From contig NZ_JAUSBA010000013.1 in assembly GCF_030652235.1 (NCBI RefSeq), positions 1-64,000 on the forward strand: 64,000 nt of DNA, in the 5' to 3' direction. Under the pieces are notes generated by a model. That model worked only from the letters and a program-made list of their open reading frames with translations, was not told the DNA's origin and did not search any database. This DNA comes from Cypionkella sp. GTDB lineage: Bacteria > Pseudomonadota > Alphaproteobacteria > Rhodobacterales > Rhodobacteraceae. Shown here piece by piece: positions 48,303-64,000 of this stretch. Every line of letters starts with the position of its first letter. The stretch's first letter is position 1. The translations under genes and the position numbers were made by a program.

Positions 48303-48770
48303 ATGCTTGATTCCGTCGACGTCACCGCTCGGGTTGGAGAAATCCTTAGCGCCCACAAAGGCATGGAGGGATCGCTGCTGCCGATCTTGCACGCCATTCA
48401 GGCTGACTTTGGCTATGTGCCGCAGGTGGCTTTGCCGATTATTGCGCAAGACCTGAACCTGTCGAAGGCCGAAGTGCATGGCGTGATGAGCTTTTATCAC
48501 GATTTCCGCGAACATCCTGCGGGCGATCATGTGCTGAAACTCTGCCGTGCGGAATCCTGTCAGTCGATGGGGGCGGATCGGGTGGCGGCTCATGCGCAAA
48601 AGGCGTTGGGGATTGAGTGGCATGAGACTTCCAAGGATGGCCGCGTAACCTTAGAACCGATTTTCTGCCTTGGCCTCTGCGCTTGTGGCCCCGCCGCAAT
48701 GATCAATGGCAAGTTGGTGGGCCGGGTCGATGAAGCCCGGATTGATGCGATCATCGGGGGTTTGAAATGA
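48303..48770 (+). CDS. fdsG: NAD-dependent formate dehydrogenase gamma subunit
   Basis: This 155-residue NuoE-like protein binds one [2Fe-2S] cluster through C81, C86, C122 and C126 (LCRAESCQSMG and FCLGLCACGP). It passes electrons between the alpha subunit and the diaphorase FdsB. It is first in fdsGBA-fdhD-fdsD; its stop overlaps the fdsB ATG as ATGA. Confidence 0.93.
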   Translation: MLDSVDVTARVGEILSAHKGMEGSLLPILHAIQADFGYVPQVALPIIAQDLNLSKAEVHGVMSFYHDFREHPAGDHVLKLCRAESCQSMGADRVAAHAQKALGIEWHETSKDGRVTLEPIFCLGLCACGPAAMINGKLVGRVDEARIDAIIGGLK

Positions 48771-50293
48771 AGATTTACCTGCCGCTGGACAGCGCCGCCG
48801 TCGCCCTTGGCGCTGACGAAATTGCTGATTCGCTGATGTTTCAAGCCAAAGCGCGTGGGATCAGCCTGACGCTGGTGCGCAATGGATCGCGTGGGATGGT
48901 CTGGCTGGAACCGATGGCCGAAGTGGTCACCGATGCGGGTCGGATGGCCTTTGGCCCGCTGACGCTCGCAGATGTGCCTGGGCTGTTTGATGATCTGGCC
49001 GTGCATCCGAAGGCCCTTGGATTGACCGAAGATCTGCCGTGGCTGAAAGCGCAAACCCGGCTGACCTTCGCCCGCGTTGGCGTGATCGACCCGCTGTCGC
49101 TGGACGACTATAAAGCGCATGGCGGGCTGGCTGGCCTGACCCTTGCGCTTGGTATGGACAAAGCTGGGATCGTTGCCGAAGTGACCAATTCGGGCCTGCG
49201 CGGTCGGGGTGGCGCGGGCTTTCCGACCGGGATCAAGTGGAAGACAGTTTCGGAAGCGCAAGCAGACCGCAAATACATCGTTTGCAATGCCGATGAGGGC
49301 GATTCTGCCACATTCGCCGACCGGATGTTGATGGAAGGCGACCCCTTCACGCTGATCGAGGGCATGATCATTGCGGGTCTTGCGACTGGGGCCACCAAGG
49401 GATTTGTGTATATCCGTTCGGAATACCCGATTGCGGTTGATGTAATGCAGAAAGCGGTGAAAATCGCGACTGCCGCTGGGCTACTTGGCGCGTCGGTTTT
49501 AGGCTCGGGTCCTGCGTTTGAAATCGAAATTCGTGTCGGTGCTGGGGCCTATGTTTGTGGCGAGGAAACCTCTCTGCTGAACAGCCTTGAAGGCAAGCGC
49601 GGTGTGGTGCGCGCCAAGCCGCCGCTGCCCGCTTTGCAGGGCTTCATGGCGAAGCCAACGGTGGTGAACAACGTGATTTCGCTGGCCTCGGTGCCGGTAA
49701 TTTTCGAAAAAGGTGCGGAGTTTTACAAGAACTTCGGCCTTGGTAGGTCGCGCGGTACCATCCCGTTGCAGATCGCCGGAAACGTCAAACACGGCGGACT
49801 TTACGAGATCGCTTTCGGCCTGACCCTTGGTGAAATCGTTGATAAAATCGCCGGGGGCAGCGCCTCAGGCCGCCCGGTGAAAGCGGTGCAGGTCGGCGGC
49901 CCCTTGGGTGCATACTTCCCCCGTGCTTTGTTCGATACACCCTTTGGTTATGAAGAATTCGCGGGCAAAGACGGCCTGATCGGCCATGCCGGTTTGACGG
50001 TGTTTGACGATAGCGCCGATATGCTGAAACAAGCCCGTTTTGCGATGGAATTCTGCGCCATCGAGTCCTGTGGCAAATGCACCCCCTGCCGGATCGGCGC
50101 TGTGCGTGGTGTTGAAACAGTAGACCGAATTGCAAAGGGCGACGCCTCGGCGATCCCGCTTTTGACCGATTTGTGCAACACCATGAAGTCCGGTTCACTT
50201 TGCGCATTGGGTGGCTTCACGCCCTACCCGGTGATGTCCGCCCTGACCCACTTTCCCGATGATTTCGCCCCAATGAAGGAAGCCGCCGAATGA
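48767..50293 (+). CDS. fdsB: NAD-dependent formate dehydrogenase beta (diaphorase) subunit
   Basis: This 508-residue NuoF-like flavoprotein reduces NAD+. It has the NAD/FMN glycine motif (NSGLRGRGGAGFPTGIKW), GAGAYVCGEETSLLNSLEGKRG, and the [4Fe-4S] motif ESCGKCTPCRIG near residue 440. The N-terminal 120 residues are a thioredoxin-like extension typical of FdsB/HoxF. It overlaps fdsA by ATGA. Confidence 0.94.
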   Translation: MKIYLPLDSAAVALGADEIADSLMFQAKARGISLTLVRNGSRGMVWLEPMAEVVTDAGRMAFGPLTLADVPGLFDDLAVHPKALGLTEDLPWLKAQTRLTFARVGVIDPLSLDDYKAHGGLAGLTLALGMDKAGIVAEVTNSGLRGRGGAGFPTGIKWKTVSEAQADRKYIVCNADEGDSATFADRMLMEGDPFTLIEGMIIAGLATGATKGFVYIRSEYPIAVDVMQKAVKIATAAGLLGASVLGSGPAFEIEIRVGAGAYVCGEETSLLNSLEGKRGVVRAKPPLPALQGFMAKPTVVNNVISLASVPVIFEKGAEFYKNFGLGRSRGTIPLQIAGNVKHGGLYEIAFGLTLGEIVDKIAGGSASGRPVKAVQVGGPLGAYFPRALFDTPFGYEEFAGKDGLIGHAGLTVFDDSADMLKQARFAMEFCAIESCGKCTPCRIGAVRGVETVDRIAKGDASAIPLLTDLCNTMKSGSLCALGGFTPYPVMSALTHFPDDFAPMKEAAE

Positions 50294-53181
50294 AAGACTT
50301 CATCATCCCGGATCGCGATTTCGGCACCCCCGCTGCCAAAAGCAAACAAATGGTCACATTGACCATAGACGGCTTTGACATCACTGTGCCGGAAGGCACC
50401 AGCATCATGCGCGCCGCCGCAGAAATCGGTATTTCAGTGCCGAAACTCTGCGCAACAGACAGTATCGACGCCTTCGGGTCCTGCCGTTTGTGCCTCGTGG
50501 AAATCGAAGGCCGCAATGGCACTCCGGCATCCTGCACCACCCCTGTTGCACCGGGCCTAAAAGTCCACACCCAGAACGCCAAGCTGAAGCAGTTGCGCCG
50601 TGGCGTGATGGAGCTTTACATCTCCGACCACCCTTTAGATTGCCTGACCTGCAGCGCCAATGGCGATTGCGAGTTGCAGGATATGGCCGGAGCAGTCGGC
50701 CTGCGCGATGTGCGATATGAAGCGATTGACACCCATTTCAAAGCCAAAGACACCTCCGGCATCGCCAACCCAAACTACATCCCGCGCGATGATTCGAACC
50801 CGTATTTCAGCTATGATCCGCAGAAATGTATCGTGTGTTCCAGGTGCGTTAGGGCCTGCGAAGAAGTTCAAGGCACTTTCGCTTTGACCATCGAAGGCCG
50901 AGGTTTTGATAGCCGAGTGTCGTTTGGCGCGAAAACTGACACTGCTTTGTCGTCTGATTGCGTCTCGTGTGGCGCTTGCGTGCAAGCCTGCCCAACCGCG
51001 ACTTTGCAAGAAAAGTCGATCATCGAGATTGGCACACCAGAACGCTCCGTCATCACCACGTGCGCTTATTGCGGCGTCGGGTGTTCTTTCAAAGCTGAGA
51101 TGCGCGGCGATGAATTGGTCCGTATGGTGCCCTACAAGCACGGCAAGGCCAACCGCGGTCATTCCTGCGTTAAGGGCCGCTTTGCTTATGGCTACGCCAG
51201 CCACAAAGACCGCATCCTGAACCCGATGATCCGCGATTCTATCAATGATCCATGGCAGGAAGTGTCGTGGGACGAGGCGATGGATTTCACCGCGAACCGG
51301 ATGAAGGGCATTATCGAGCGTCACGGTCGCCACTCGGTCGGCGTGATCACCTCGTCGCGCTGCACCAATGAAGAAGCCTATCTGGTGCAGAAACTGACCC
51401 GAGCCGTGTTTATGAACAACAATACGGATACCTGCGCGCGGGTATGTCATTCGCCCACTGGCTACGGTCTCGGGCAAACCTTGGGCACCTCGGCCGGCAC
51501 GCAAGACTTTGATTCTGTTGAAGAAACAGATGTTGTGATGGTCATCGGCGCCAACCCAGTCGCGGCCCACCCAGTCTTCGCCAGCCGCTTGAAAAAGCGT
51601 CTGCGCAAGGGTGCAAAGCTGATCGTGATTGACCCGCGCCGCACAGAGATGGTGAAATCGCCCCATGTGAAAGCCGAGCACCACCTCGCTTTGACCCCAG
51701 GCACCAACGTTGCCATCGTCACTGCTTTGGCGCATGTCATCGTAACCGAAGGGCTGTTCGACGCGCAGTTTATCCAAGACCGCTGCGATTGGGATGAGTT
51801 CCAAGACTACGCTGAATTCGTCAGTCAGCCACAAAACTCACCTGAATCGGTGGCTTTGCTGACTGGCGTTCCCGCTGCCGAAGTGCGTGCTGCGGCGCGG
51901 CTGTTTGCCAAGGGCGGCAATGGCTCGATCTATTACGGCTTGGGCGTGACCGAACACAGCCAAGGCTCGACCACCGTGATCGGCATCGCCAACCTTGCGA
52001 TGATGACCGGCAACATTGGCCGTCCGGGTGTGGGTGTGAACCCGCTGCGCGGGCAGAATAACGTGCAAGGTTCGTGCGACATGGGGTCTTTCCCGCATGA
52101 ATTGCCCGGCTACCGCCATGTCAAAGGCGACGGCGTGCGCGATATTTTCGAACGGGCTTGGGGCGTCAAAATTGACGACGAACCGGGGCTGCGCATCCCG
52201 AACATGCTGGATGCTGCGGTTGAGGGCACTTTCAAGGGCCTCTATTGTCAAGGCGAAGACATCCTGCAATCCGACCCCGACACCAAACACGTCGCAGCGG
52301 GCCTTGCCGCGATGGAATGTGTGATCGTGCATGACTTGTTCCTGAATGAAACCGCCAATTACGCTCACGTCTTCCTGCCCGGCTCCACCTTTCTTGAGAA
52401 GGACGGCACCTTCACCAACGCCGAGCGCCGCATCAACCGCGTGCGCAAAGTGATGGCCCCGCGCAATGGTTATGCCGATTGGGAGATCACCCAGATGCTC
52501 GCCAATGCGATGTTGAAAGATACGGCTGGGGCCAAATGGACCTATACGCATCCCACGCAAATCATGGACGAAATCGCCATGACCACGCCGTCTTTCGCAG
52601 GCGTGAACTATGAAAAGCTGGAAGTTTTGGGCTCAATCCAATGGCCCTGCAACGATGCCGCCCCCGAAGGCACACCGTTGATGCATGTTGAAGCTTTTGT
52701 GCGCGGCAAGGGCAAGTTCATCAACACCGAGTATGTCGCGACCGATGAGAAAACCGGCCCGCGGTTCCCTCTGCTTCTGACCACGGGGCGGATTCTGTCG
52801 CAGTATAATGTCGGTGCGCAGACACGCCGCACCGAGAACGTCGCTTGGCATGCCGAGGATGTGCTGGAAATCCACCCGCATGACGCCGAAGTGCGCGGCG
52901 TCAAGGATGGAGACTTCGTTCGTCTGGCGTCTCGCTCGGGTGACACAACCCTGCGCGCGACAATTACCGACAAGGTTAATCCGGGCGTGGTTTACACCAC
53001 CTTCCACCACCCCGACACCCAAGCCAACGTGATCACCACCGACTTCTCGGATTGGGCCACAAACTGTCCGGAATACAAGGTCACCGCTGTGCAAGTCTCA
53101 CCCAGCAATGGCCCGTCGGAATGGCAAGAGGAATACAACGCTCAAGCCGCGATGTCGCGGCGCATCGCAGCGGCAGAGTGA
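50290..53181 (+). CDS. fdsA: NAD-dependent formate dehydrogenase alpha (molybdenum) subunit
   Basis: This 963-residue catalytic subunit oxidises formate to CO2. The N-terminus has a [2Fe-2S] ferredoxin domain (C54, C65, C68, C82), a NuoG-like H-C3 motif (DHPLDCLTCSANGDC), two [4Fe-4S] motifs (CIVCSRCVRAC, CVSCGACVQAC), and a further one at CAYCGVGC. The molybdenum ligand is C386 in ARVCHSPTG, a cysteine where some enzymes have selenocysteine, with H387 beside it. Its TGA overlaps the fdhD ATG. Confidence 0.96.
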   Translation: MKDFIIPDRDFGTPAAKSKQMVTLTIDGFDITVPEGTSIMRAAAEIGISVPKLCATDSIDAFGSCRLCLVEIEGRNGTPASCTTPVAPGLKVHTQNAKLKQLRRGVMELYISDHPLDCLTCSANGDCELQDMAGAVGLRDVRYEAIDTHFKAKDTSGIANPNYIPRDDSNPYFSYDPQKCIVCSRCVRACEEVQGTFALTIEGRGFDSRVSFGAKTDTALSSDCVSCGACVQACPTATLQEKSIIEIGTPERSVITTCAYCGVGCSFKAEMRGDELVRMVPYKHGKANRGHSCVKGRFAYGYASHKDRILNPMIRDSINDPWQEVSWDEAMDFTANRMKGIIERHGRHSVGVITSSRCTNEEAYLVQKLTRAVFMNNNTDTCARVCHSPTGYGLGQTLGTSAGTQDFDSVEETDVVMVIGANPVAAHPVFASRLKKRLRKGAKLIVIDPRRTEMVKSPHVKAEHHLALTPGTNVAIVTALAHVIVTEGLFDAQFIQDRCDWDEFQDYAEFVSQPQNSPESVALLTGVPAAEVRAAARLFAKGGNGSIYYGLGVTEHSQGSTTVIGIANLAMMTGNIGRPGVGVNPLRGQNNVQGSCDMGSFPHELPGYRHVKGDGVRDIFERAWGVKIDDEPGLRIPNMLDAAVEGTFKGLYCQGEDILQSDPDTKHVAAGLAAMECVIVHDLFLNETANYAHVFLPGSTFLEKDGTFTNAERRINRVRKVMAPRNGYADWEITQMLANAMLKDTAGAKWTYTHPTQIMDEIAMTTPSFAGVNYEKLEVLGSIQWPCNDAAPEGTPLMHVEAFVRGKGKFINTEYVATDEKTGPRFPLLLTTGRILSQYNVGAQTRRTENVAWHAEDVLEIHPHDAEVRGVKDGDFVRLASRSGDTTLRATITDKVNPGVVYTTFHHPDTQANVITTDFSDWATNCPEYKVTAVQVSPSNGPSEWQEEYNAQAAMSRRIAAAE

Positions 53182-53987
53182 TGCAAACCCACCGCACCTT
53201 GCCGCGCCTGACCTTTGGGTCGGGCGCGGATTTTGGGTCGGCATCGGCCCGAGAATTGCCCGAGGAAGTCGCGGTAGCCTTGTCGTTTAACGGCTCAACC
53301 CAAGCCGTAATGATGGCCTCACCTGCCGATCTGGAAGATTTTGCCTACGGCTTTGCGCTGACCGAAGGTATTGCCAAGCCTGAAGAAATTCAAAGCGTTG
53401 AGGTGGAAGAAACCCCGCTTGGCCTAGATGTGCAAATCTGGCTGGAACCAAAGGCCGAAGCCCGCCTGACCAAACGCCGCCGCACCATGGCGGGCCCGGT
53501 CGGCTGTGGTCTTTGCGGAATCGACAGTCTGGAAGAAGCCACGCGGGTGATGCAGCCTGTGCCTGCCTCCAATTTCCGCATGGCCCCGTCCGAAATCATG
53601 GCCGCCGTCGCTTCGCTTCCCGCCGCCCAACCGCTGCACGATCTCACCCGCGCGGTTCACGCCGCTGGCTATTTCAGTAGCAAACTGCTGGCCGCGCGCG
53701 AAGATGTTGGCCGCCACAACGCGCTGGACAAACTCTGCGGCCATTTGATCCGCACCGCGCATCCGACCGGAGCCATCGTGCTGACCAGCCGCGTTTCCAT
53801 TGACATGGTGCAGAAGGTAGCCGCCCTCGGCGCGCCGATCCTGATCGCCGTGTCCGCACCAACTGCCCATGCCGTCCGCCTTGCTGACCTCGCGGGCATC
53901 ACCCTGATCGCCCTCGCCCGCCCTGATCGGTTTGAGGCTTATACCCACACCGACCGCATTTCGCAGGAGACCGCCCATGTCGCTTAA
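53181..53987 (+). CDS. fdhD: Formate dehydrogenase accessory sulfurtransferase FdhD
   Basis: This 268-residue protein delivers sulfur to the molybdenum cofactor of formate dehydrogenase. The CGLCG motif (GPVGCGLCGIDSLEEA) holds the persulfide cysteines, and AREDVGRHNALDKLCGHL is the other family signature. ATG 53181 overlaps the fdsA stop by one base (TGATG). It lies inside the fds operon, so the maturation factor is made with its target. Confidence 0.95.
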   Translation: MQTHRTLPRLTFGSGADFGSASARELPEEVAVALSFNGSTQAVMMASPADLEDFAYGFALTEGIAKPEEIQSVEVEETPLGLDVQIWLEPKAEARLTKRRRTMAGPVGCGLCGIDSLEEATRVMQPVPASNFRMAPSEIMAAVASLPAAQPLHDLTRAVHAAGYFSSKLLAAREDVGRHNALDKLCGHLIRTAHPTGAIVLTSRVSIDMVQKVAALGAPILIAVSAPTAHAVRLADLAGITLIALARPDRFEAYTHTDRISQETAHVA

Positions 53988-54225: not shown

Positions 54226-54375
54226 CCCGACCGCAAGAGAAAAAGATACTTCTGGATCACGGCATAAAACGAGTGCTTGAGCAACTATGCTGTTTATCCT
54301 AGGCTTAACGTATGTCGATCCGTGACTCACCGGGTCGGCCATTTTGATCGGATTTTATTGTATCGGAGACGTTTC

Positions 54376-55107
54376 ATGGGAAATGTCATTGTGCGATCGG
54401 GCTCGTCTGGGCAATCCGTCCGGGACTTGCAAATGGCGCTGAACAACCGCCTGAATCCTTCACCAAATCTGATCATCAACGGCCTTTTCACCCCGCAAAC
54501 CGAACGCGCCCTGCTGGCGTTTCAACGCTGCAACTGGCTAGAGATGGACGGCATTGCCGGGCCCTGCACGCTGGAAGCGCTGTATGGAACCGAGTCCGCT
54601 CCGATCATCCTGCACAACGTGCCCTATCTCAGCCAACCGACGCCAACGACCTGTTGGGCAGCGGCGACGGCGATGTTGACGGGGCTGTCGATCCAAGCCA
54701 TCCGCATGACCACGCCGCAACGTTTGCTGACCGCCAATGGTTCGCTGATCAACGAATGTGAGCATGGCCAGAGGCTTGAAGTGCATCAGACGTTCGCGCA
54801 ACTGCATCGGCTGCGCTATCAACCGCCGCAAAGCTGGCCCGTCGCGGCGCTGATCGGGGTGTTGCGGAGTGGCCCGATCATGCTGGAATTGCTGCATAAT
54901 CCCCGTTCTTTTCAACGCGGCAGCAGCTCGTCAGGGCATTATGTGGTGATCGTCGGGGCGCGTGGTTCGCACAGCTCCGACGCCACCACCACCACGCTGC
55001 GGATTTATGATCCCGATGACAGCGACGGTGAGGGGCTTTATTCGGCGGTCTACGCCTCCATGCTGCGCCGCGCTCCACTGGCGACGTTTGGGATGTTTAC
55101 CCAGTAG
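54376..55107 (+). CDS. Papain-like cysteine peptidase with peptidoglycan-binding domain
   Basis: This 243-residue protein has an N-terminal peptidoglycan-binding fold (VRDLQMALNNRLNPSPN, then INGLFTPQTERALLAFQR) and a C39/C70-like peptidase domain with QPTPTTCWAAATAML as the cysteine motif, SSSGHYVVIVGA as histidine and YDPDDSDG as the acidic residue. No signal peptide was seen. The ATG at 54376 follows GGAGAC. It could act on peptidoglycan-linked or secreted substrates; an effector role is possible. It converges with the phosphopantetheinyl transferase gene and overlaps it by 11 bases. Confidence 0.75.
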   Translation: MGNVIVRSGSSGQSVRDLQMALNNRLNPSPNLIINGLFTPQTERALLAFQRCNWLEMDGIAGPCTLEALYGTESAPIILHNVPYLSQPTPTTCWAAATAMLTGLSIQAIRMTTPQRLLTANGSLINECEHGQRLEVHQTFAQLHRLRYQPPQSWPVAALIGVLRSGPIMLELLHNPRSFQRGSSSSGHYVVIVGARGSHSSDATTTTLRIYDPDDSDGEGLYSAVYASMLRRAPLATFGMFTQ

Positions 55108-55744
55108 GCACAGCGCAAAATACTGCGAAGAAGTGGGCGTTTTCTACGCAGCACCCTTGGATTTGAAAGCCTTTTTCAATCGATGAGATGGCTTTGCAGA
55201 ATTCCGCGGTGCAACTTTGATCTTGCCAGATAATTCGTAAAGTTTGGAAATCGAAAATCTGCTGCGTGATCGGGTATTGCGCCTTATACGCGGCCTCTTT
55301 CGCGACAAAAATCCGCAGCGCCTGCAAGCCTTGCTGCGGCGCCGACAGGTCATTGATTTGTTTGAATTCCTCTGGCCGAAGCACAGTCGACCACAGTTCT
55401 GCGGGCAGCGGCTGCAAGGGTTCTATATCCAAACCCAGCCCCCGATACTCGCGCGTCCGTCCCATCACGGCGAGACATGCCCCCGCGCAATGGCTGATGC
55501 TGCCTGTTGCAGCTTCTGGCCAGATCGGGGCACGATCCTGACCCATCGGAATAGCGACAGGTGCAAAGCCCAGACCTTGCAAAGCCTGCCGCGCGGCACT
55601 GCGCCCGGTGGCAAATTCTGCCAATCGCGCGGGTACGGCGCTCGGCAAATCTTCTCTCGGCCAAAGTGTAAGTGGCGCGGCGGGTTCGCCCAGCGTAACG
55701 CCGCGTGGCAAAATCGCGCGCAGTCGTGCCGCGATGTCAGGCAT
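55097..55744 (-). CDS. 4'-phosphopantetheinyl transferase (Sfp/EntD type)
   Basis: This 215-residue enzyme moves phosphopantetheine from CoA to carrier-protein serines. GSISHCAGACLAV, GLGLDIEP with its metal-binding acidic residues, and FVAKEAAYKAQYP are the three family motifs, in the EntD-like order. Its ATG overlaps the NRPS stop by eight bases, so it probably activates the ACP and PCP of this operon. Confidence 0.9.
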   Translation of the reverse strand: MPDIAARLRAILPRGVTLGEPAAPLTLWPREDLPSAVPARLAEFATGRSAARQALQGLGFAPVAIPMGQDRAPIWPEAATGSISHCAGACLAVMGRTREYRGLGLDIEPLQPLPAELWSTVLRPEEFKQINDLSAPQQGLQALRIFVAKEAAYKAQYPITQQIFDFQTLRIIWQDQSCTAEFCKAISSIEKGFQIQGCCVENAHFFAVFCAVPTG

Positions 55745-58700
55745 TCACCTGCCCACGCATCGCGCGCCGTCGCGCCATCGCATCGGCGCGCGCATCGCCA
55801 CGGTCGGACACCACCGCAGGGACCGCTTTCGGGCGATCATCCAAATGCGCCGCCAAAGCCGACAAAACCGGGAAACGGAAGATATCGGTGATCGACAGCT
55901 TCGCTGCGCCAAGGCTATCCCGGATCTCGCGATGGACTTGCACCGCCAGCAGGGAATGCCCTCCCAAGGCGAAGAAATTGTCCTGCGAGCCGACTTTCGC
56001 CACCCCCAAAACCCGCGCCCAGATGGCCGCGATCTGCGATTCAATATCCGAGCTGGGCGCAACAAAGCTTGGCGTTTCAAGCGCCTTGGCGCTTGGGGCC
56101 GGCAGGGCCTTGCGATCTACCTTACGGTTCGGCGTTAGCGGAAAGGCATTAAGGCTGACAAAATGCGCGGGCATCATGTGCTCAGGCAAAAGCCCCGCCA
56201 ATTCGGCCCGCAGTGCGACCTCGGTCGCCGCGCCAACAATATAAGCCACCAGCCGCAAGTCACCCGGCGTATCTTCGCGCGCCATCACCACGGCTTGCCG
56301 CACCCCCGGCTGCGCTTCCAGCACAGATTCAATCTCGCCCAGCTCAATCCGGTAGCCGCGCAGTTTGACTTGATGATCGGTGCGACCTAGGAAATCGATC
56401 TTACCATCCACCCGCCACCGCACCAGATCGCCCGTACGATACATCCGCGCGCCCCAAGCGCAGGCACGATCAGTTGAAACAAAACAATCGTTCATAAACC
56501 GCTCTGCTGTCAGATCAGGGCGCTGCCAATAGCCGCGCGTCACACCATCGCCACCGATCCACAACTCTCCTGCCACACCGGGGGCAACCGGATTCATCAC
56601 CGCATCCAGCACATAAATCTGTTGGTTTGCCAACGGCTTGCCGATATTGCACACCCCATCAACCTCGCTGACTTCCTCCACCGAAGACCAGATGGTTGTC
56701 TCGGTCGGTCCATACATGTTCAACACCCGTGCCGACGTCGCACGGCGCAAATCAGCAACCAGCGCGCCCGGCAAAGCCTCGCCGCCCAGCATCACGGTCT
56801 TCACCCCCGCCAAAGCCATGCGCGACTCATCATTCATCACGATCATTCGTGCCATCGACGGTGTACATTGCAGATGCGTCACCTTATGCCGCAATATCTG
56901 CGCCGCGATCGAGAAATCATCCTCGGCCACGCCACCGCCCGCATTGGCGCGCTTAACCACTTCGGCCAGCGGATATAGCCCCTCCATGACTTTCTCGGGT
57001 GCTACGCCATAGTCGATCAGGCAGGCCACTTCGCCCACGCCAATCCGCTTCAACTGCTCCACCCGTGCCAGTGCGTCGTTGACTGTGCCGAACAGGCCCG
57101 AGTCCTCAAAATAGCGCTGGAAAGCGAAATCGAGGATCGCCTCGGTCTCCTCGTCGCTCAGCGATTGCAGATCAATCTGCATCGGATTTGAGACGCCCTG
57201 CGGCTTTTTGAATGCCGGGAAAGCCCACGCATATTGCTTGATCAGCGCCGCAGCCGAGCGCAGATAATCCTTCATCGGCCCGCGCGACACTTCCCGCGCA
57301 TGATCACGGTCGCGCGCGATATAGCTGTGCAGCATCAGAGTCACGGTATGGTTGGCCGGATCATGCCCGACCTCACGAAGCGCCTGATGATAAAGCTTAA
57401 TCTTACCAGCCACTTCCTCAATCGACTGACCCAGAAGATGCGTGAGTACATTCGCACCAATCGCCCCGGCTTCGCGCCAAGTTTCGGGATTGCCCGCCGT
57501 TGTCACCCATAGCGGCAGTTCTTTCGATACCGGGCGCGGCTGGCTGATCAGTTCAAACGTGCCGCCATCTGCGGTCGGAAACCCAACCTTTTCACCCCGC
57601 CACAGCCTGCGTACCTGATCCGCAGCGGCAAACATCGCCGCCTTGTTGTTCGGCGGCGTATTCTCGGGCCGCAGCACGAAATCATCCGGGTGCCAGCCCG
57701 AAGCCACCGCCACCCCGGCGCGGCCGTTCGTCAGATTGTCGATCACCGCCCATTCCTCGGCAATCCGCGCCGGATGGTGCAGGGGCATCACGCAAGACCC
57801 TGCACGCACGCCAATGTTTTTCGTCACCGCCGCCACCGCCGCCCCGGTAACCGAAGGGTTCGGATAGGGGCCGCCAAAGGCGTGAAAATGCCGCTCTGGC
57901 GTCCAGACTGCGCAAAAGCCGTGTGTATCGGCGAACTTGGCACCTTCCAGCAGCAACTCGTATTTCTTCGGACCGGCACCGTCATCATTGCCCCAGTAGT
58001 ACAGCGAGAAATCCATCTTCTGCGCCGATGCAATCGCCCCACCCGACACCAGGCTGCGGTTTTCATCGCTGGTCAGCACCACTTTGAAGCCCCGCGCCAG
58101 TGTCCAGAACAGCTCCAGCACCGAAATGTCAAAGGACAGCGAGGTCACGGCCAGCCACACCCCGGCCTCTGGGCCAATGCGCTGATCCATCCCGGTGAAG
58201 AAATTGGCCACATTGCGGTGTTCCACCATAACACCCTTCGGTCGCCCGGTAGATCCAGAAGTATAGATCATATAGGCCAGATCAGCCGAGGTGACACCAG
58301 ATATAGGGTTGGCATCGCTGGCTTGACTGGTGCGCGCGTCGGTATCCAAACACAGCACTTGCGCTGCATGCTCGGGCAAACCCGCCGCAATGTCACTTTG
58401 CGTCACGATCACCGGGCAGGCGGAATCCTCAATATACAAGGCAATCCGATCCGCCGGATAGGTCGGGTCCATCGGCACATAAGCCCCGCCCGCCTTGTGG
58501 ACCGCCAGAGCACCAACCAGCAGATCAAGGCTGCGATGCGTGCACAGGCCCACCAGTGTGCCCGGCACCACGCCCATGCCGATCAGCACATGCGCAACCC
58601 GATTGGCGCGGGCATTCAGCGCGGCATAGGTCAGGTTTTGATCGTTGCAGACCAAAGCAACAGCGTCAGGACTGCGCAGCACTTGGCTCTCAAAGGCTTG

Positions 58701-60227
58701 ATGCACGCAAAGGCTTGAATCATATGGTGCTTTCGTCTGATTCCAGCCGTGCAGCACCTGCTCACGCTCAGCATCCGTCAGGTTTGAGATGCTGGAAAGT
58801 GGCGCATCAGGCGCAGCCTTTGCCAAGGCCGCGACCAGATGGGCGATGCGTGCGCCGTAGGCCTGCGCCTCGGCCAAGGACAGGCGCGTGGCGTCGAAAT
58901 ACAGAGCAGTGGGCGTCAGCGTAACTGTGGTTCCTGTGATCGGGCCAGCCTCTGCCACGCCAACTTGCGGACATTGCAGGCCAGCAAGCGCCGTGTCACG
59001 TGTCATCAGATCCAGCGCGAAGCCCGGCTTCGGTGCCAAATCCAAACTCTGCCGCGCGTGCGTGACGCTGCCCACAGCCGCAACCCGCAAAGGTCGCCAA
59101 CCCGAGGTATAGCCCACCAGCTCCTGCGCCTCCTGCGCCAGATCGACCACAGCCGCGCCAGAGGCCAGTCCAGCAGCCAGTGCAAGGTCGGCAAGCGCGC
59201 CCGAAAGCGGCAGCGTTTGCCAGTCAGCAGCCGCCATACTCGCATGACCAAGTGCGGCAGGTTGCATTGATTTCAAAGCCTTGCGCAAGGCAGGTTCCGC
59301 CACAGCCAAGCCTTTCCCCAATTCGGTCAGCCCCTCGGCCCCAACCAGAAGCGCCGTATCCGTCACTGTTGCAGGCGAAACCGCCAGCCCCTTTTCCTGA
59401 CAGGTCAACCGCTGCAACCGCACCGCACCTGAACCGCAAGCCACCACCAATCCCGCTTCATCGGCGCGCAAAACCTGCCCCGGAACGCCCGAAGCTTCGG
59501 CAATCTCCGCAGCGCCTACGTTCAAAACACCCGCCCCAAAGGCAATTTTCGCCGTGGTCAGCGGGTTCCAATAGCGGCCATGATCCAAGGCCCGCACCAA
59601 GCGCACCACCGCCTCGGCGGGTTGCGAGAAATCAATCCGCCCCATCGCCGCCGGACGCTTATGGCGCAAATACAGCCGACGCTGGCTTAAGTCCTGCGGC
59701 TGACGCTGCAACACGCCACTTTCCAACTGCGCCAAAACGCTGGGAAAACTTTCCATCGCTGCTTCAAAACAGCGGGTGTTCAAGGTCAGCGCAGTGTCCT
59801 GTGGGGCGATCTCAAAGCCGCGGCTTTCCAGCACATCGCCTTCATCGACGCCGCTCTCAATCAGATGCCACGAAATGCCATGTTGAGTCTCACCATTCAG
59901 AATCGCCCAGACCGGAGCATTCAACCCCGCATACTGCGGCAAAGGCCCGTCGTGAAAGTTCACCGCCCCCCGCGCCAGTGCCAAAACCTCTGGCCCAATC
60001 ACCGATAGGTTGGCCACCGAAAGCAGCCAATCGACGCGCGTGCCCAACCGCACCGCCAGATCACGTCCATAGGCCTCTACCCGCAAACCCCGCCCCAGCG
60101 CCCATTGCCGCACATCCGCGTTGCGCGTCACCACCGCCGCAAGCCGGTGACCCCGCGCCAACAGCATCTCGCCGCACTGGCGGGTCAGGGTTTCATTGCC
60201 GATCAGATAGGTGGAAAACTGGGTCAT
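55737..60227 (-). CDS. NRPS: formyltransferase, condensation-like remnant, adenylation domain split by luciferase-like monooxygenase, PCP
   Basis: This 1496-residue protein has, in order: a formyltransferase (about 1-205; N90, H92 and D128 in the catalytic positions) with its C-terminal barrel (to about 285); a weak condensation-like stretch (about 295-495) without HHxxxDG; an adenylation domain (about 500-728, then 1100-1385; YMIYTSGSTGRPKG, YGPTETT, YRTGDLVRW) interrupted between motifs A4 and A5 by an FMN-type luciferase-like monooxygenase (about 730-1098) of the MupA/Atu3671 kind; and a PCP with S1425 in LGGHSLLAV. The selectivity residues read D-I-L-Q-M-G-M-I-W-K, close to the published glycine code. 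It starts 10 bases after the glycosyltransferase gene. Confidence 0.88.
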   Translation of the reverse strand: MTQFSTYLIGNETLTRQCGEMLLARGHRLAAVVTRNADVRQWALGRGLRVEAYGRDLAVRLGTRVDWLLSVANLSVIGPEVLALARGAVNFHDGPLPQYAGLNAPVWAILNGETQHGISWHLIESGVDEGDVLESRGFEIAPQDTALTLNTRCFEAAMESFPSVLAQLESGVLQRQPQDLSQRRLYLRHKRPAAMGRIDFSQPAEAVVRLVRALDHGRYWNPLTTAKIAFGAGVLNVGAAEIAEASGVPGQVLRADEAGLVVACGSGAVRLQRLTCQEKGLAVSPATVTDTALLVGAEGLTELGKGLAVAEPALRKALKSMQPAALGHASMAAADWQTLPLSGALADLALAAGLASGAAVVDLAQEAQELVGYTSGWRPLRVAAVGSVTHARQSLDLAPKPGFALDLMTRDTALAGLQCPQVGVAEAGPITGTTVTLTPTALYFDATRLSLAEAQAYGARIAHLVAALAKAAPDAPLSSISNLTDAEREQVLHGWNQTKAPYDSSLCVHQAFESQVLRSPDAVALVCNDQNLTYAALNARANRVAHVLIGMGVVPGTLVGLCTHRSLDLLVGALAVHKAGGAYVPMDPTYPADRIALYIEDSACPVIVTQSDIAAGLPEHAAQVLCLDTDARTSQASDANPISGVTSADLAYMIYTSGSTGRPKGVMVEHRNVANFFTGMDQRIGPEAGVWLAVTSLSFDISVLELFWTLARGFKVVLTSDENRSLVSGGAIASAQKMDFSLYYWGNDDGAGPKKYELLLEGAKFADTHGFCAVWTPERHFHAFGGPYPNPSVTGAAVAAVTKNIGVRAGSCVMPLHHPARIAEEWAVIDNLTNGRAGVAVASGWHPDDFVLRPENTPPNNKAAMFAAADQVRRLWRGEKVGFPTADGGTFELISQPRPVSKELPLWVTTAGNPETWREAGAIGANVLTHLLGQSIEEVAGKIKLYHQALREVGHDPANHTVTLMLHSYIARDRDHAREVSRGPMKDYLRSAAALIKQYAWAFPAFKKPQGVSNPMQIDLQSLSDEETEAILDFAFQRYFEDSGLFGTVNDALARVEQLKRIGVGEVACLIDYGVAPEKVMEGLYPLAEVVKRANAGGGVAEDDFSIAAQILRHKVTHLQCTPSMARMIVMNDESRMALAGVKTVMLGGEALPGALVADLRRATSARVLNMYGPTETTIWSSVEEVSEVDGVCNIGKPLANQQIYVLDAVMNPVAPGVAGELWIGGDGVTRGYWQRPDLTAERFMNDCFVSTDRACAWGARMYRTGDLVRWRVDGKIDFLGRTDHQVKLRGYRIELGEIESVLEAQPGVRQAVVMAREDTPGDLRLVAYIVGAATEVALRAELAGLLPEHMMPAHFVSLNAFPLTPNRKVDRKALPAPSAKALETPSFVAPSSDIESQIAAIWARVLGVAKVGSQDNFFALGGHSLLAVQVHREIRDSLGAAKLSITDIFRFPVLSALAAHLDDRPKAVPAVVSDRGDARADAMARRRAMRGQVNA

Positions 60228-60237
60228 CTTGGCGTCC

Positions 60238-61251
60238 TTAGCCCTCGGTCGTGCGGGGCGATTTGGCTAAAGCGGCAGGTTTGCCGAAAACGGGGCTGAC
60301 CGCCGTACACAAAGCGTGCAGGGTCAGGTCTGTCAGATACAGCGGCGGATCGCCGCGGTCTTTGCGCTGGATCAGCAGCCGCGCACGCCACAAGACGCCG
60401 CCCGAAAGCAGCGCCAGTGTGGCCGCGAAAGCATAGCCAGCACCATGGTTTTTCACGAAATAATACAGGCGGCTGTCCAGCCAGAACCCCGGTATGCGCT
60501 GCCATTCCTGCATCCCTGTCGAGGCTGATCCGATATGCATCACCCGGCTTTCCACCACATAATCCGTCGGCCAACCCGCCAAAGCCGCCCTGCGACATAG
60601 ATCGGTTTCCTCAAAATACAAGAAAAACCGCTCGTCAAACAAACCGATCTGATCCAGCACCGCCATCCGCATCATCAGGCTTGCCCCTGCCAACCAATCC
60701 ACCCGACAGGTGGCTTGCGGGATCGGTTGCGCCACAATCCAGCGGTTCAACATCCGGCTGACCGGGCCGAACCTGATCTGCGACTCAAACTCTGAGGCAA
60801 TCGAGGGAAAGCGAAACGCCGTACGATGCGGTGCGACATCGTCGCCATAAATGAAGCTGCCCGCGAACCCCGTTGCAGGATGGGTCTGCAGATGCATTAG
60901 CAGCGCCCGGATCGCATCACTGTCGGGAAAGGCATCAGAATTCAGGATATAGACAAATTCCGGCGCAGAACCGTCCGGCATGCCTGCGCGGATGCCAAAA
61001 TTATTGCCCGCGCCAAAGCCGCCATTATGACCCGATTGCAGCACCCGCACCGCCTGCGCACCCTTGTCCCAGCCGCACTTTCGCACCTCAGCAGTCATTG
61101 TTTCAAACGATCCATCTCCGGAATCGTTGTCAACAATAACCAGCGCGCCTGCGATGCCGTCCAATGCCATCAGCGCCGATTCCGCCGCCCGCAGTGTCAT
61201 CTCGGCCGAGCGCCAGTTCAGCAAAACCGTCAACAACCCCGCCATGCTCAT
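60238..61251 (-). CDS. Family 2 glycosyltransferase
   Basis: This 337-residue GT-A enzyme has VIVDNDSGDGSFE, GGFGAGNNFGIR, the metal-binding NSDA segment in FVYILNSDAFPDSD and ETDLCRRAALAGWP, typical of rhamnosyl-type GT2 proteins. A hydrophobic C-terminal segment (AGYAFAATLALLSGGVLW) suggests membrane association. Its start overlaps the PKS stop (ATGA), so it probably decorates the operon's product. The sugar cannot be predicted. Confidence 0.88.
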   Translation of the reverse strand: MSMAGLLTVLLNWRSAEMTLRAAESALMALDGIAGALVIVDNDSGDGSFETMTAEVRKCGWDKGAQAVRVLQSGHNGGFGAGNNFGIRAGMPDGSAPEFVYILNSDAFPDSDAIRALLMHLQTHPATGFAGSFIYGDDVAPHRTAFRFPSIASEFESQIRFGPVSRMLNRWIVAQPIPQATCRVDWLAGASLMMRMAVLDQIGLFDERFFLYFEETDLCRRAALAGWPTDYVVESRVMHIGSASTGMQEWQRIPGFWLDSRLYYFVKNHGAGYAFAATLALLSGGVLWRARLLIQRKDRGDPPLYLTDLTLHALCTAVSPVFGKPAALAKSPRTTEG

Positions 61252-64000
61252 TCCGCCGCAGCGGCGAGGGGGACGATATTCGACGCGGTCTTCTCGGCGT
61301 CGGCAATCACCGCCCGCAGCTTTGCCGCCAGCACCCGCACGTTTGGCTCCAGCACCATGCTGTCGTGATCACCGGGCACCTCAACCGTCAATAGTGCGGA
61401 TGAAAATCTGGTCAAATCGTTATCATTAAAAACATATTCCTTGGCTTTCGACACCCAGTTGCCAGCCGTCACCGCCCAGTGCTTGTCCAAAGGCGGGCGG
61501 AACAAGACCGTCGCTCCGCCCCGCTCTGACATTTGATACTGCGGCAACGCCGCGCGGAAGGCCGCCTCAATCGCCGCATTATGAAATTGCGCATCGCTTT
61601 GCTCGGTCGCCTGAGAGTGGCGCTTTTGCAACTCCCAAGCCCAACGTTTGCGCGCCCATTCAGCCAGATAGCCGGGGCCTTTTGCGCGCAATTCTGCCAG
61701 TTTGATCAGGGCCTTGTCGGTGCGCGATAAGCTGGGTCGTAAGGGCAATGGCGTATCCAGCAACACCAGCAAAGACACGACCTCCCCCGCCGCTTCCAAC
61801 TGTCGCGCCATCTCCCACGCGATCAGACCCCCGCCCGAAAACCCGCCCAGCATGTAAGGGCCAACGGGCTGCGCCTGACGCAACTCGGCAATGTAATCGG
61901 CAGCCGCTTCCGGCAATGTCGTATGCGGCGCAGCATCGCCATAAAGCCCGCGCGCCTGTAGGCCGTAGAAGGGGCGATCACCGCCCAATAGCTGCGCCAA
62001 ATGCCGCAGATTCAATACGTTACCGAACATCCCCGCGACAAGGAAGAATGGTTGCTTTGCGCCACCCTCACCCTGATGCATCGGCACCAGATGTATAAAC
62101 CGCCGCGCAGGGGCCGCCAGTTTTGCAGGCGCATCCCCCCCCACATCGCCAATCTGCGCCACGATCAGCGCCGCACAGCGCGCAATCGTCGGTGCCTCAA
62201 ACAGCACCGAGATCGGGAAATCCACCCGATAGGCTTTTTTCACCATCGCAAACAACCGCACCGCGATCAGACTGTGGCCGCCAAGGTCGAAGAAACTGTC
62301 CTCGACCCCCACTTGGGCGACGCCCAGCAACTCCTGCCAGAACCCGACCAGCGTGCGTTCAACATCATTGCGCGGCTCGACGTAGGCCGTGTCCAGATCG
62401 GGCCGCTCAAACGCCTTGCCCTCGGATTTTACCGCCTCCGCCTCGGCCGTCTGGCGAATCAGCGCAGGCAGATCGAGGCTGGAGACGATGATCTGGCTGC
62501 CGCCCAAAGCCACGGCGCGGCCAAACGCCTCGGCACCCTCGCCGGGTTTGATGCCCAAACTGAACGCGTGCAGCAGGCGTTCCTCGGCAGGGGAGACCGG
62601 TTTTGCCACCACATCATCATAGCTCAATTCACGCGGATCGGGGGCGGCAAAGCTCAGCCCTCCCTCCAGCTTGTGAATGTTAAAGCCTTCAATTTCAACG
62701 CAAACTTCGCCCTCTGGCGTCGCAAGCGTCACGTCAAAACTTGCGGTCGGCGCGCCCGCGCGGTTGTCTGCTGCATTGCGCACCCAAGACACAATCTCGG
62801 CCGGAAGTGGGCGCAGAACGCGAATTTTGCTGTAAGATACCGGCACCCAAAGGTGATCCGGCTGGTAGCCCGCAATCAGCCCCATCGCCCAACCGGTCGC
62901 CAAATCCATCAGCGCCGGATGCAGCAGCCACGGCCCCGCTTCTGCCGCAAATTCCGCAGGCAAAGCCAGCCGCGCCAGCCCTTCACTGCCGCCAATCGCA
63001 CGCGAGCGCAGGACCCGCCAGCGGGGCCCAAACGCCAGATGTTCCTCTTGCGGGCTGCGCAGGCCGACGCCAACCTCGGCCGCAGGCAACCGCCCGGCTA
63101 TCGCCAAAACGTCAATCTTGGCAGGAGTCGCTGCCAGCGGAATCGCCCGCGCCTGCGCGTGCAACTGCCAGCCCAACCGCCCTTTCACCGTCACACCCGA
63201 GCATAACTCAAACCCATAGCCCTCATCCGTGCGCGACAACGTGGCGCGCACCTGCCGCGCCTCACCCTTGGCCACATCCAAAGACCGGAAGAAGTACAGA
63301 TCGCGCAGCTCAAAGCCGCCCATCTCACCCTGCGCGCGCAAAGCCTCGGCGGCGATTTCAATCGTACCGGTGCCGGGCATCAGCGCCTGCCCCAACTTGG
63401 TACGATGACCATCCAACACCCAGCGATCCAAGCCATAAGCGGCTGTAAACAGACGATTTCCATGGCCGTCTAAGCTTGCTTCATCCAGCATCGGCGCGGA
63501 AATCGGCAGGCGCGGGGCTGGCCGCGCGCCAGTACGATCCACCAATGCCTCTGCCGCCATGCCAACGCCAGTCCAGATGCCCCAGTTCAGCGCCACGACC
63601 TTGGTTTTGCCACCGCTGCGCGATTTCGAATAAGCGTTCAGGAATTCATTCGCCGCCACATAATCAATCTGCCCGGCTGGCCCGGTCACGGTCGACGTCG
63701 AGGCAAACAGCACCAGCAAGTCGAGCGATCCATCCGGGAACAACCGATCCAGCACCAGCGTGCCATGCAGTTTCGGCGCGAACACTTCCTCAACCTGCGC
63801 CGGCGTCTTCAGCATCAATGGCCCATCATCGACCACCCCCGCCGCATGGATCACCGCGCGGATTGGGCCAAAGCGTTTCACCCCGGCATCTACCGCCGCG
63901 CGCATATCCTCCATGTTGCAGACATCCGCAGGGGCAACGAGAACTTCGCCCCCCAGGGCCTCCAGCCGTTGCAAGGCCAAAATCCGCCGCGCAATCGGGC
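61248..64000 (-). CDS. Polyketide synthase, C-terminal part (KR, DH, ACP, TE), cut by window edge
   Basis: The open frame continues past the right edge, so the first visible codon is not a start. Counting from 63980, a ketoreductase (FASTSTVTG and YVAANEFLNAY, Y107) is followed by a double hot-dog dehydratase (about 180-440; H191 in DGHRT, D359 in HPALMDLATG), then a return to ketoreductase-type sequence (about 465-515), an ACP (S570 in LGGHSLIAV) and a thioesterase (S715 in GGFSGGG, H872 in GDHDSM). A KS and AT should lie upstream. The thioesterase marks this as the release module. Confidence 0.88.
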   Translation of the reverse strand, partial: PIARRILALQRLEALGGEVLVAPADVCNMEDMRAAVDAGVKRFGPIRAVIHAAGVVDDGPLMLKTPAQVEEVFAPKLHGTLVLDRLFPDGSLDLLVLFASTSTVTGPAGQIDYVAANEFLNAYSKSRSGGKTKVVALNWGIWTGVGMAAEALVDRTGARPAPRLPISAPMLDEASLDGHGNRLFTAAYGLDRWVLDGHRTKLGQALMPGTGTIEIAAEALRAQGEMGGFELRDLYFFRSLDVAKGEARQVRATLSRTDEGYGFELCSGVTVKGRLGWQLHAQARAIPLAATPAKIDVLAIAGRLPAAEVGVGLRSPQEEHLAFGPRWRVLRSRAIGGSEGLARLALPAEFAAEAGPWLLHPALMDLATGWAMGLIAGYQPDHLWVPVSYSKIRVLRPLPAEIVSWVRNAADNRAGAPTASFDVTLATPEGEVCVEIEGFNIHKLEGGLSFAAPDPRELSYDDVVAKPVSPAEERLLHAFSLGIKPGEGAEAFGRAVALGGSQIIVSSLDLPALIRQTAEAEAVKSEGKAFERPDLDTAYVEPRNDVERTLVGFWQELLGVAQVGVEDSFFDLGGHSLIAVRLFAMVKKAYRVDFPISVLFEAPTIARCAALIVAQIGDVGGDAPAKLAAPARRFIHLVPMHQGEGGAKQPFFLVAGMFGNVLNLRHLAQLLGGDRPFYGLQARGLYGDAAPHTTLPEAAADYIAELRQAQPVGPYMLGGFSGGGLIAWEMARQLEAAGEVVSLLVLLDTPLPLRPSLSRTDKALIKLAELRAKGPGYLAEWARKRWAWELQKRHSQATEQSDAQFHNAAIEAAFRAALPQYQMSERGGATVLFRPPLDKHWAVTAGNWVSKAKEYVFNDNDLTRFSSALLTVEVPGDHDSMVLEPNVRVLAAKLRAVIADAEKTASNIVPLAAAAE

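Follow-up and report, generated by a model that had tools for sequence, protein, structure and literature searches.

We analysed a window of 64,000 nucleotides, the first part of a contig (C73:1-64000) in the 4.8-Mb genome of Cypionkella sp., which carries on its minus strand an open reading frame (55737-60227, ATG start) for a non-ribosomal peptide synthetase (NRPS) of 1496 residues. This protein has the make-up of a formylating initiation module with a monooxygenase nested inside its adenylation domain, and it is encoded next to a type I polyketide synthase (PKS) within an exopolysaccharide locus. Because the starter and its partner PKS sit inside exopolysaccharide clusters in many related bacteria, the arrangement suggests a peptide-polyketide assembly line that serves a polysaccharide. 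We give an even chance to the proposal that the loading module and the PKS make a short N-formylamino-enoyl chain, which would probably be attached to an exopolysaccharide sugar or repeat unit.

The domain order of the protein is formyltransferase (FT), adenylation (A), luciferase-like monooxygenase (LLM) and peptidyl carrier protein (PCP). The FT (residues 1-285; 59373..60227, on the minus strand like all domains of the protein) is Fmt/ArnA-like and has both subdomains, with Pfam matches to Formyl_trans_N at residues 64-165 and to Formyl_trans_C at 194-279. When an AlphaFold model of residues 1-510 (mean pLDDT 94.7) was searched with Foldseek, the best matches were Met-tRNA formyltransferase and ArnA. 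The A domain is split. Pfam places AMP-binding in two stretches, the best at 512-724, and AMP-binding_C at 1298-1369; together with NCBIfam and the core motifs, this gives a first part that ends just beyond motif A4 (residues 512-735; 58023..58694) and a remainder that runs from before A5 to A10 (residues 1099-1377; 56097..56933). Between A4 (FDISVLELF, from residue 699) and A5 (NMYGPTE, at about 1170) lies the LLM (residues 737-1092; 56952..58019), matched by Pfam Bac_luciferase at 748-1064 and by NCBIfam TIGR04020, the MupA/Atu3671 family, at 477 bits over residues 740-1090. The curated cut-off of that family is 244 bits, so that the insert belongs to it by score. Compared with an LLM-free ortholog (locus L091), the insert adds 364 residues between A4 and a THLQCTPS motif, and the A core motifs on both sides of the auxiliary enzyme are retained, as in an interrupted adenylation domain. 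A model of residues 500-1475 (mean pLDDT 84.0) matched NRPS structures, best DhbF (5u89), as well as the PuwE oxygenase domain (6ket; 45% identity, TMt 0.91), to which the LLM part aligns with an E-value of 3e-101. The PCP (residues 1398-1462 by Pfam PP-binding; 55842..56036) carries the conserved Ser1425 and is followed by a basic C-terminal tail (55740..55835), which might, as a guess, be a docking motif; one tail pattern matched in 69 of 88 rows, and of the 19 rows that do not match it, two lack a tail and several show a variant by eye.

Pfam detected no condensation (C) domain in the 1496-residue protein, in agreement with the missing HHxxxDG motif, though the C-terminal lobe of such a domain remains at residues 292-505 (58713..59354). 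This vestigial lobe was matched by HHalign to a profile built from six C domains (probability 95, E 3e-8), whereas a control on the FT part gave 1.7, and AlphaFold modelled it with high confidence. The 50 Foldseek matches displayed for the FT-linker model were all of formyltransferase fold, and the evidence for the lobe comes from HHalign instead. Because of this match the module resembles a C-A-PCP module with an FT in place of the front half of the C domain, and its history looks like a replacement of that kind. With an FT fused to A and PCP domains and no working C domain upstream in the protein, it has the composition of a formylating initiation module.

In an alignment of 81 rows (the window protein and 80 loci, the best 80 of 498 relatives, which are also the loci counted below), FT residues N90, H92 and D128, which we take to be the catalytic triad, and Ser1425 of the PCP are each identical in 80 rows, with a gap in the remaining row; the domain observation is thus far beyond chance. 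The pocket of the A domain reads DILQMGMIWK, the register having been placed by means of motifs and not by aligning the protein to a solved A domain. Across the 81 rows only the position read as 299 is free to vary (M in 63, L in 11, F in 6 and Y in 1), and the exceptions elsewhere are one X at 322, one V at 330 and one gap at 517. A second alignment of 19 rows keeps D-I-L-Q, G, W and K in 18 of them, and its Streptomyces row reads DMVQLGMVWK. The pocket of the window protein is close to the canonical glycine code, DILQLGLIWK, and this near-invariant pocket makes glycine the probable substrate. A preliminary description of this DNA had noted FT, A and PCP domains in one protein, the absence of HHxxxDG and a luciferase-like domain of about 370 residues between A4 and A5, and it had named a domain search as one check; the Pfam and NCBIfam searches find both the formyltransferase and the monooxygenase and bear out these observations. 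Its interpretation of a starter that loads, oxidises and formylates a small amino acid agrees with the glycine-like pocket, the FT catalytic residues and the MupA-family LLM. It overlooked the remnant of the C domain, the partner PKS and the exopolysaccharide surroundings.

The NRPS gene belongs to a head-to-tail unit of four genes, PKS, GT2, NRPS and 4'-phosphopantetheinyl transferase (PPTase), which are separated by 10 bases or overlap by 4 and 8. The PKS gene, whose 3' part occupies 61248..64000 (minus strand) and which reaches to about contig position 67661, encodes 2137 residues from a TTG start, with an ATG ten codons further also possible. Its domains are ketosynthase (KS), acyltransferase (AT), ketoreductase (KR), dehydratase (DH), acyl carrier protein (ACP) and thioesterase (TE). 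In the relatives the catalytic residues of KS, AT, KR (Ser/Tyr), DH, ACP and TE are kept wherever rows have letters, bar single outliers, with gaps in up to 9 of 80 rows. A family 2 glycosyltransferase (GT2; 60238..61251, minus strand, Pfam) lies between PKS and NRPS, and the start of the PPTase gene (55097..55744, minus strand, Pfam and NCBIfam) overlaps the NRPS stop. Past the PKS, the same contig encodes another GT2, a 472-residue protein, an acyltransferase-3, a WecG/CpsF transferase and a further GT2, then a tyrosine-kinase-like ATPase (BYK) and a Wzz protein. The 472-residue protein has no Pfam or NCBIfam match, and that it is Wzy-like is a guess. The surroundings of the PKS and NRPS are thus an exopolysaccharide locus, with WecG/CpsF, GT2s, Wzz and BYK in the contig itself and flippase, export protein and sugar transferase in relatives; none of these last three was seen in the contig, whose end lies just past Wzz. 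No siderophore gene was noticed among the genes named at the window and plasmid loci, where no search aimed at siderophores was made.

On the other side of the unit, a gene for a protein with peptidoglycan-binding and papain/C39-like peptidase parts (54277-55107, plus strand) converges on the end of the PPTase gene and overlaps it; the corresponding query matches 4 of 80 loci. A formate dehydrogenase-like operon, named by eye (48303-53987, plus strand), adjoins the cassette, and FdhA and FdhD queries match 16 of 80 loci each, by eye mostly closer relatives of the window.

The unit and its setting recur widely. By tblastn, the PKS and the GT2 are found in 79 of 80 loci each and the PPTase in 69, and the order PKS-GT2-NRPS on one strand is kept in 75 of the 78 loci with matches to all three. 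Polysaccharide queries (WecG, Wzy-like, BYK and Wzz) match 67 of 80 loci, 51 of them with at least two queries, and 64 of the 68 loci of at least 20 kb; six of the 67 rest on matches below 35% identity, five of these being Hydrogenophaga. As a control, 48 kb of the window itself and six further loci of its genome were queried in this way and gave no match. Among the four long loci that were missed (L015, L030, L071 and L080), ten selected proteins were scanned with Pfam and six, one of them new, with NCBIfam; L030 has a GT4, L080 a flippase-like protein, a GT61 and a GT4, and L071 a GDP-mannose dehydratase. Near the cassette of one Hydrogenophaga locus (L028:16604-22612) lies a 2003-residue protein with two AMP-binding stretches, two carriers, a C domain and a TE, and open reading frames of similar size are found nearby at L030:16001-21925 and L080:17946-24011.

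Within the family sample, 106 of 295 genomes match the protein at E <= 1e-100; these include two without the LLM (G085 and G097) and some other matches that are partial or split. The expectation of the preliminary description that the three features would be an uncommon combination in Rhodobacteraceae was therefore wrong. In a sample of the phylum, 48 of 398 genomes match at 1e-80; judged by eye, the match runs across the A-LLM stretch in 16 of these (query about 2-965, in one case to 833), and the remaining matches are mainly to the second half of the A domain. Outside Rhodobacterales the cassette occurs in Shinella, Aminobacter and Hydrogenophaga. In a FastTree phylogeny of 88 rows, from which two fragments (L026 and L085) and L094 were left out, the eight Hydrogenophaga rows lie inside the Rhodobacterales rows, and the fork joining them to their neighbours has a support of 89 and is drawn open. 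This nesting is consistent with transfer of the cassette into Hydrogenophaga as a block. L094 has the cassette by tblastn, together with BYK, Wzz and WecG matches. Between the four genes, the correlation of pairwise identities is only moderate (Spearman 0.38-0.61, most fragments being kept in the test), and strict co-inheritance is thus not claimed. The contigs of L043 and L015 are titled Exiguobacterium profundum (Bacillota) and Curvibacter, respectively; their cassettes nest among Paracoccaceae rows, and these assemblies are probably mislabelled or misbinned.

A plasmid collection contains 15 records in which 80% or more of the protein is matched at a single place. Seven of these records were inspected, six with annotation (Aminobacter, Paracoccus marcusii, two Ruegeria, Shinella and Parasedimentitalea) and one, from Neorhizobium, without. 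In all six the gene stands among flippase, export, sugar-transferase or glycosyltransferase genes; L119, described below, is a further annotated view that carries the FT, which makes the count six of seven. L111 too has a flippase-family protein, a GT2 and a sugar transferase alongside, and L112 an export protein and a Wzz protein. On a Deinococcus plasmid, a glycine-type A-LLM-PCP protein, with no FT by Pfam, is encoded upstream of a PKS and adjoins capsule genes. A Streptomyces A-LLM gene (L118:10576-16370) adjoins a flavin reductase gene, with LysW/LysX genes near, which would be fitting for a two-component enzyme.

These observations can be combined into a pathway. The A domain would activate glycine onto the PCP, the FT would cap its amine with formyl from formyl-tetrahydrofolate, and the nested LLM, dependent on flavin mononucleotide (FMN), would oxidise the glycine on the carrier, with the alpha carbon as the most likely site. 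The hemiaminal formed in this way would be kept stable by the formyl cap, and the loading module would thus deliver an N-formyl-(probably alpha-hydroxy)glycyl-PCP. We infer formylation and alpha-hydroxylation of glycyl-PCP because of the chemistry of the MupA, puwainaphycin and palmerolide LLMs. This starter unit would be handed to the KS of the neighbouring PKS and extended by presumably a single malonyl-type unit, after which the KR would reduce, the DH dehydrate and the TE release a short N-formylamino-enoyl chain. Because the unit is embedded in exopolysaccharide loci, the chain probably goes on the polysaccharide, with the TE, the GT2 protein or the acyltransferase-3 as candidate routes of transfer to a sugar or repeat unit. 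In its most specific form, the proposal is that the PKS-NRPS product is a covalent exopolysaccharide decoration, an oxidised, N-formylglycine-derived short enoyl group placed on the repeat unit by the TE or the locus acyltransferase, and that this assembly line is common to about a third of the sampled family genera and moved as a block into Hydrogenophaga; this we offer tentatively, with somewhat less than an even chance of being right.

The order from starter to PKS is supported by colinear relatives. In L093, L107, L108 and L119 the starter gene lies directly 5' of the PKS gene on the same strand. By Pfam, L119 (Aliiroseovarius) encodes FT-A-LLM-PCP and then KS-AT-KR-DH-ACP-C-A-PCP-TE, and L093 encodes FT-A-LLM-PCP and then KS-AT-KR-DH-ACP-C-A as far as the locus extends; L108 has the starter, the PKS and then A-PCP (by tblastn only), and L107 the starter followed by a PKS that retains the TE residues. 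The starter has no complete C domain or TE, and the PKS has a KS in front and, in the exopolysaccharide version, a TE at its end. Three of these relatives speak for a different explanation, namely that the product is a small secreted or membrane-bound metabolite (a signal, chelator or antibiotic), perhaps glycosylated by the GT2, and that the exopolysaccharide genes are mere neighbours. In L093 and L119 the starter and PKS module fused to a further C-A (in L119 also PCP-TE), without evident polysaccharide genes, form an ordinary natural-product layout, to which L108 is similar by tblastn, and the PKS carries a TE. We consider this explanation unlikely but serious, as in most loci examined, across Rhodobacterales, Shinella, Aminobacter and Hydrogenophaga, the TE-ended cassette lies among polysaccharide genes.

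Several further observations weigh against an exopolysaccharide decoration made by the pathway above. The starter itself is not tied to exopolysaccharide, because in L119, the seventh annotated FT-carrying plasmid view, it adjoins nitrous-oxide reductase genes, and L093 and L108 have no match to the polysaccharide queries. The long locus L015 has only one GT4, among unrelated metabolic genes, and in the Rhizobiales arrangement PKS and NRPS are divergent and the GT2 is not between them. No match was found in 189 of the 295 family genomes. In L091 the FT motif is still present, the LLM and DH are missing, KR residues are lost, and the 19 kb of the locus give no polysaccharide-query match. In L092, which adjoins BYK and Wzz matches, neither the FT motif nor the LLM is left, the KS cysteine and the carrier serine are gone as well, and the cassette is probably decaying. 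These losses speak for a product that is either not fixed or dispensable. No flavin reductase is encoded in the four-gene unit, and the characterised MupA substrate is a beta-keto thioester, as described in the available part of PMC10952193, versus the aminoacyl substrate proposed here. Finally, the pathway is built on sequence, its chemistry being the part that goes beyond what was observed. The joint loss of LLM, DH and KR residues in L091 is a single case; it may be a sign that the same chain is worked on by the oxidation step and the reductive loop.

Two alternatives concern the chemistry of the LLM. It could oxidise the amine instead of the alpha carbon, and the starter would then be N-formyl-N-hydroxyglycine, a retro-hydroxamate that binds metal. 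Sequence leaves the order of the steps free, and formyl caps next to N-oxidation are familiar in hydroxamate siderophores. We regard this alternative as improbable, since related LLMs are described as alpha-carbon hydroxylases, for MupA in vitro (available part of PMC10952193) and for PuwE as a proposal (available part of PMC4219810). The other alternative starts from glycine-type A-LLM cores in which no FT was detected, namely L109 and L110 (both with a C domain) and L120 (whose N-terminus has no Pfam match). Such cores, like the amide-forming MtaG/MelG modules, would suit an LLM that cleaves the C-N bond, the alpha-hydroxyglycine collapsing to a glyoxylyl thioester or to released formamide; this has little probability for the window module, as there would be no use for a dedicated FT in a module that discards the nitrogen, and the FT residues are kept in 80 of 81 rows, with one gap. 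These cores and L091, which keeps the FT motif without the LLM, make the LLM and FT steps separable. The L109 protein (L109:8542-14118) has C, A and PCP domains in one chain; its A domain contains an LLM and, further on, a methyltransferase, and thus looks doubly interrupted.

Modular assembly lines are usually taken to produce secreted small molecules; if the proposed decoration is true, they also modify surface polysaccharides in a large bacterial group. The decoration would give a function to genes named in plasmid records only as 'MupA/Atu3671 family FMN-dependent luciferase-like monooxygenase', and a number of orphan type I PKS and NRPS genes listed in genome papers might be explained in the same way. 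One compact chain proposed to activate, cap and oxidise glycine is also a testable enzyme.

PKS and NRPS genes are recorded in Roseobacter genome papers (PMC4062626, PMC8383342, PMC11225332), whose available parts contain no exopolysaccharide-linked reading of them. The Phaeobacter inhibens PKS Inhi_1972 and NRPS Inhi_1974, in the available part of PMC4062626, may be the same cassette by gene number alone. For an Entotheonella cluster, too, a loading module with an FT has been predicted (available part of PMC12858407). Althiomycin was considered as a known case of an FT/LLM glycine starter and was dropped, as the available text of PMC3445576 names an AurF-like N-oxygenase and contains neither 'monooxygenase' nor 'formyl'. 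In the open-licence literature searched, we found no FT-A-LLM module, no PKS-NRPS in an exopolysaccharide locus and no described product.

The initiation module of LgrA (linear gramicidin) is the same kind of F-A-PCP starter, and in the PDB no entries are closer to the window protein as a whole than those of LgrA. Of the LgrA FT only the core aligns, the window FT having in addition the Fmt/ArnA C subdomain, and LgrA has no room for the C-domain lobe, because only about 60 residues separate its matched FT and A parts. LgrA is also not known to have an LLM. In MtaG/MelG-type A domains a flavin monooxygenase lies inside a glycine A domain, as the LLM does in the probably glycine-type A domain of the window module; unlike it, these are late modules that give a terminal amide and are not known to have an FT. 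OzmO and similar formyl-glycine loading modules are FT-A(Gly)-PCP proteins that feed a PKS, as proposed here; they are not known to carry an LLM, and the compounds they lead to are oxazole natural products. The available part of PMC8949500 describes both NRPS initiation modules with F domains and A domains that contain a nested monooxygenase. The PuwE oxygenase domain is the closest solved LLM, but it is a separate domain between PKS and NRPS modules, for which hydroxylation of the puwainaphycin acyl chain is proposed (available part of PMC4219810). In vitro, and with a reductase supplied from outside, MupA hydroxylates a beta-keto thioester bound to an ACP (available part of PMC10952193), and the palmerolide LLM is a proposed alpha-hydroxylase (available part of PMC8739492). 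Both thus resemble the proposed role of the window LLM in alpha-hydroxylation of carrier-bound chains, demonstrated for MupA and proposed for palmerolide; they are free-standing or PKS-embedded, in contrast to the position inside an A domain here. The parts of this assembly line are of known kinds, and their combination and the exopolysaccharide setting look new.

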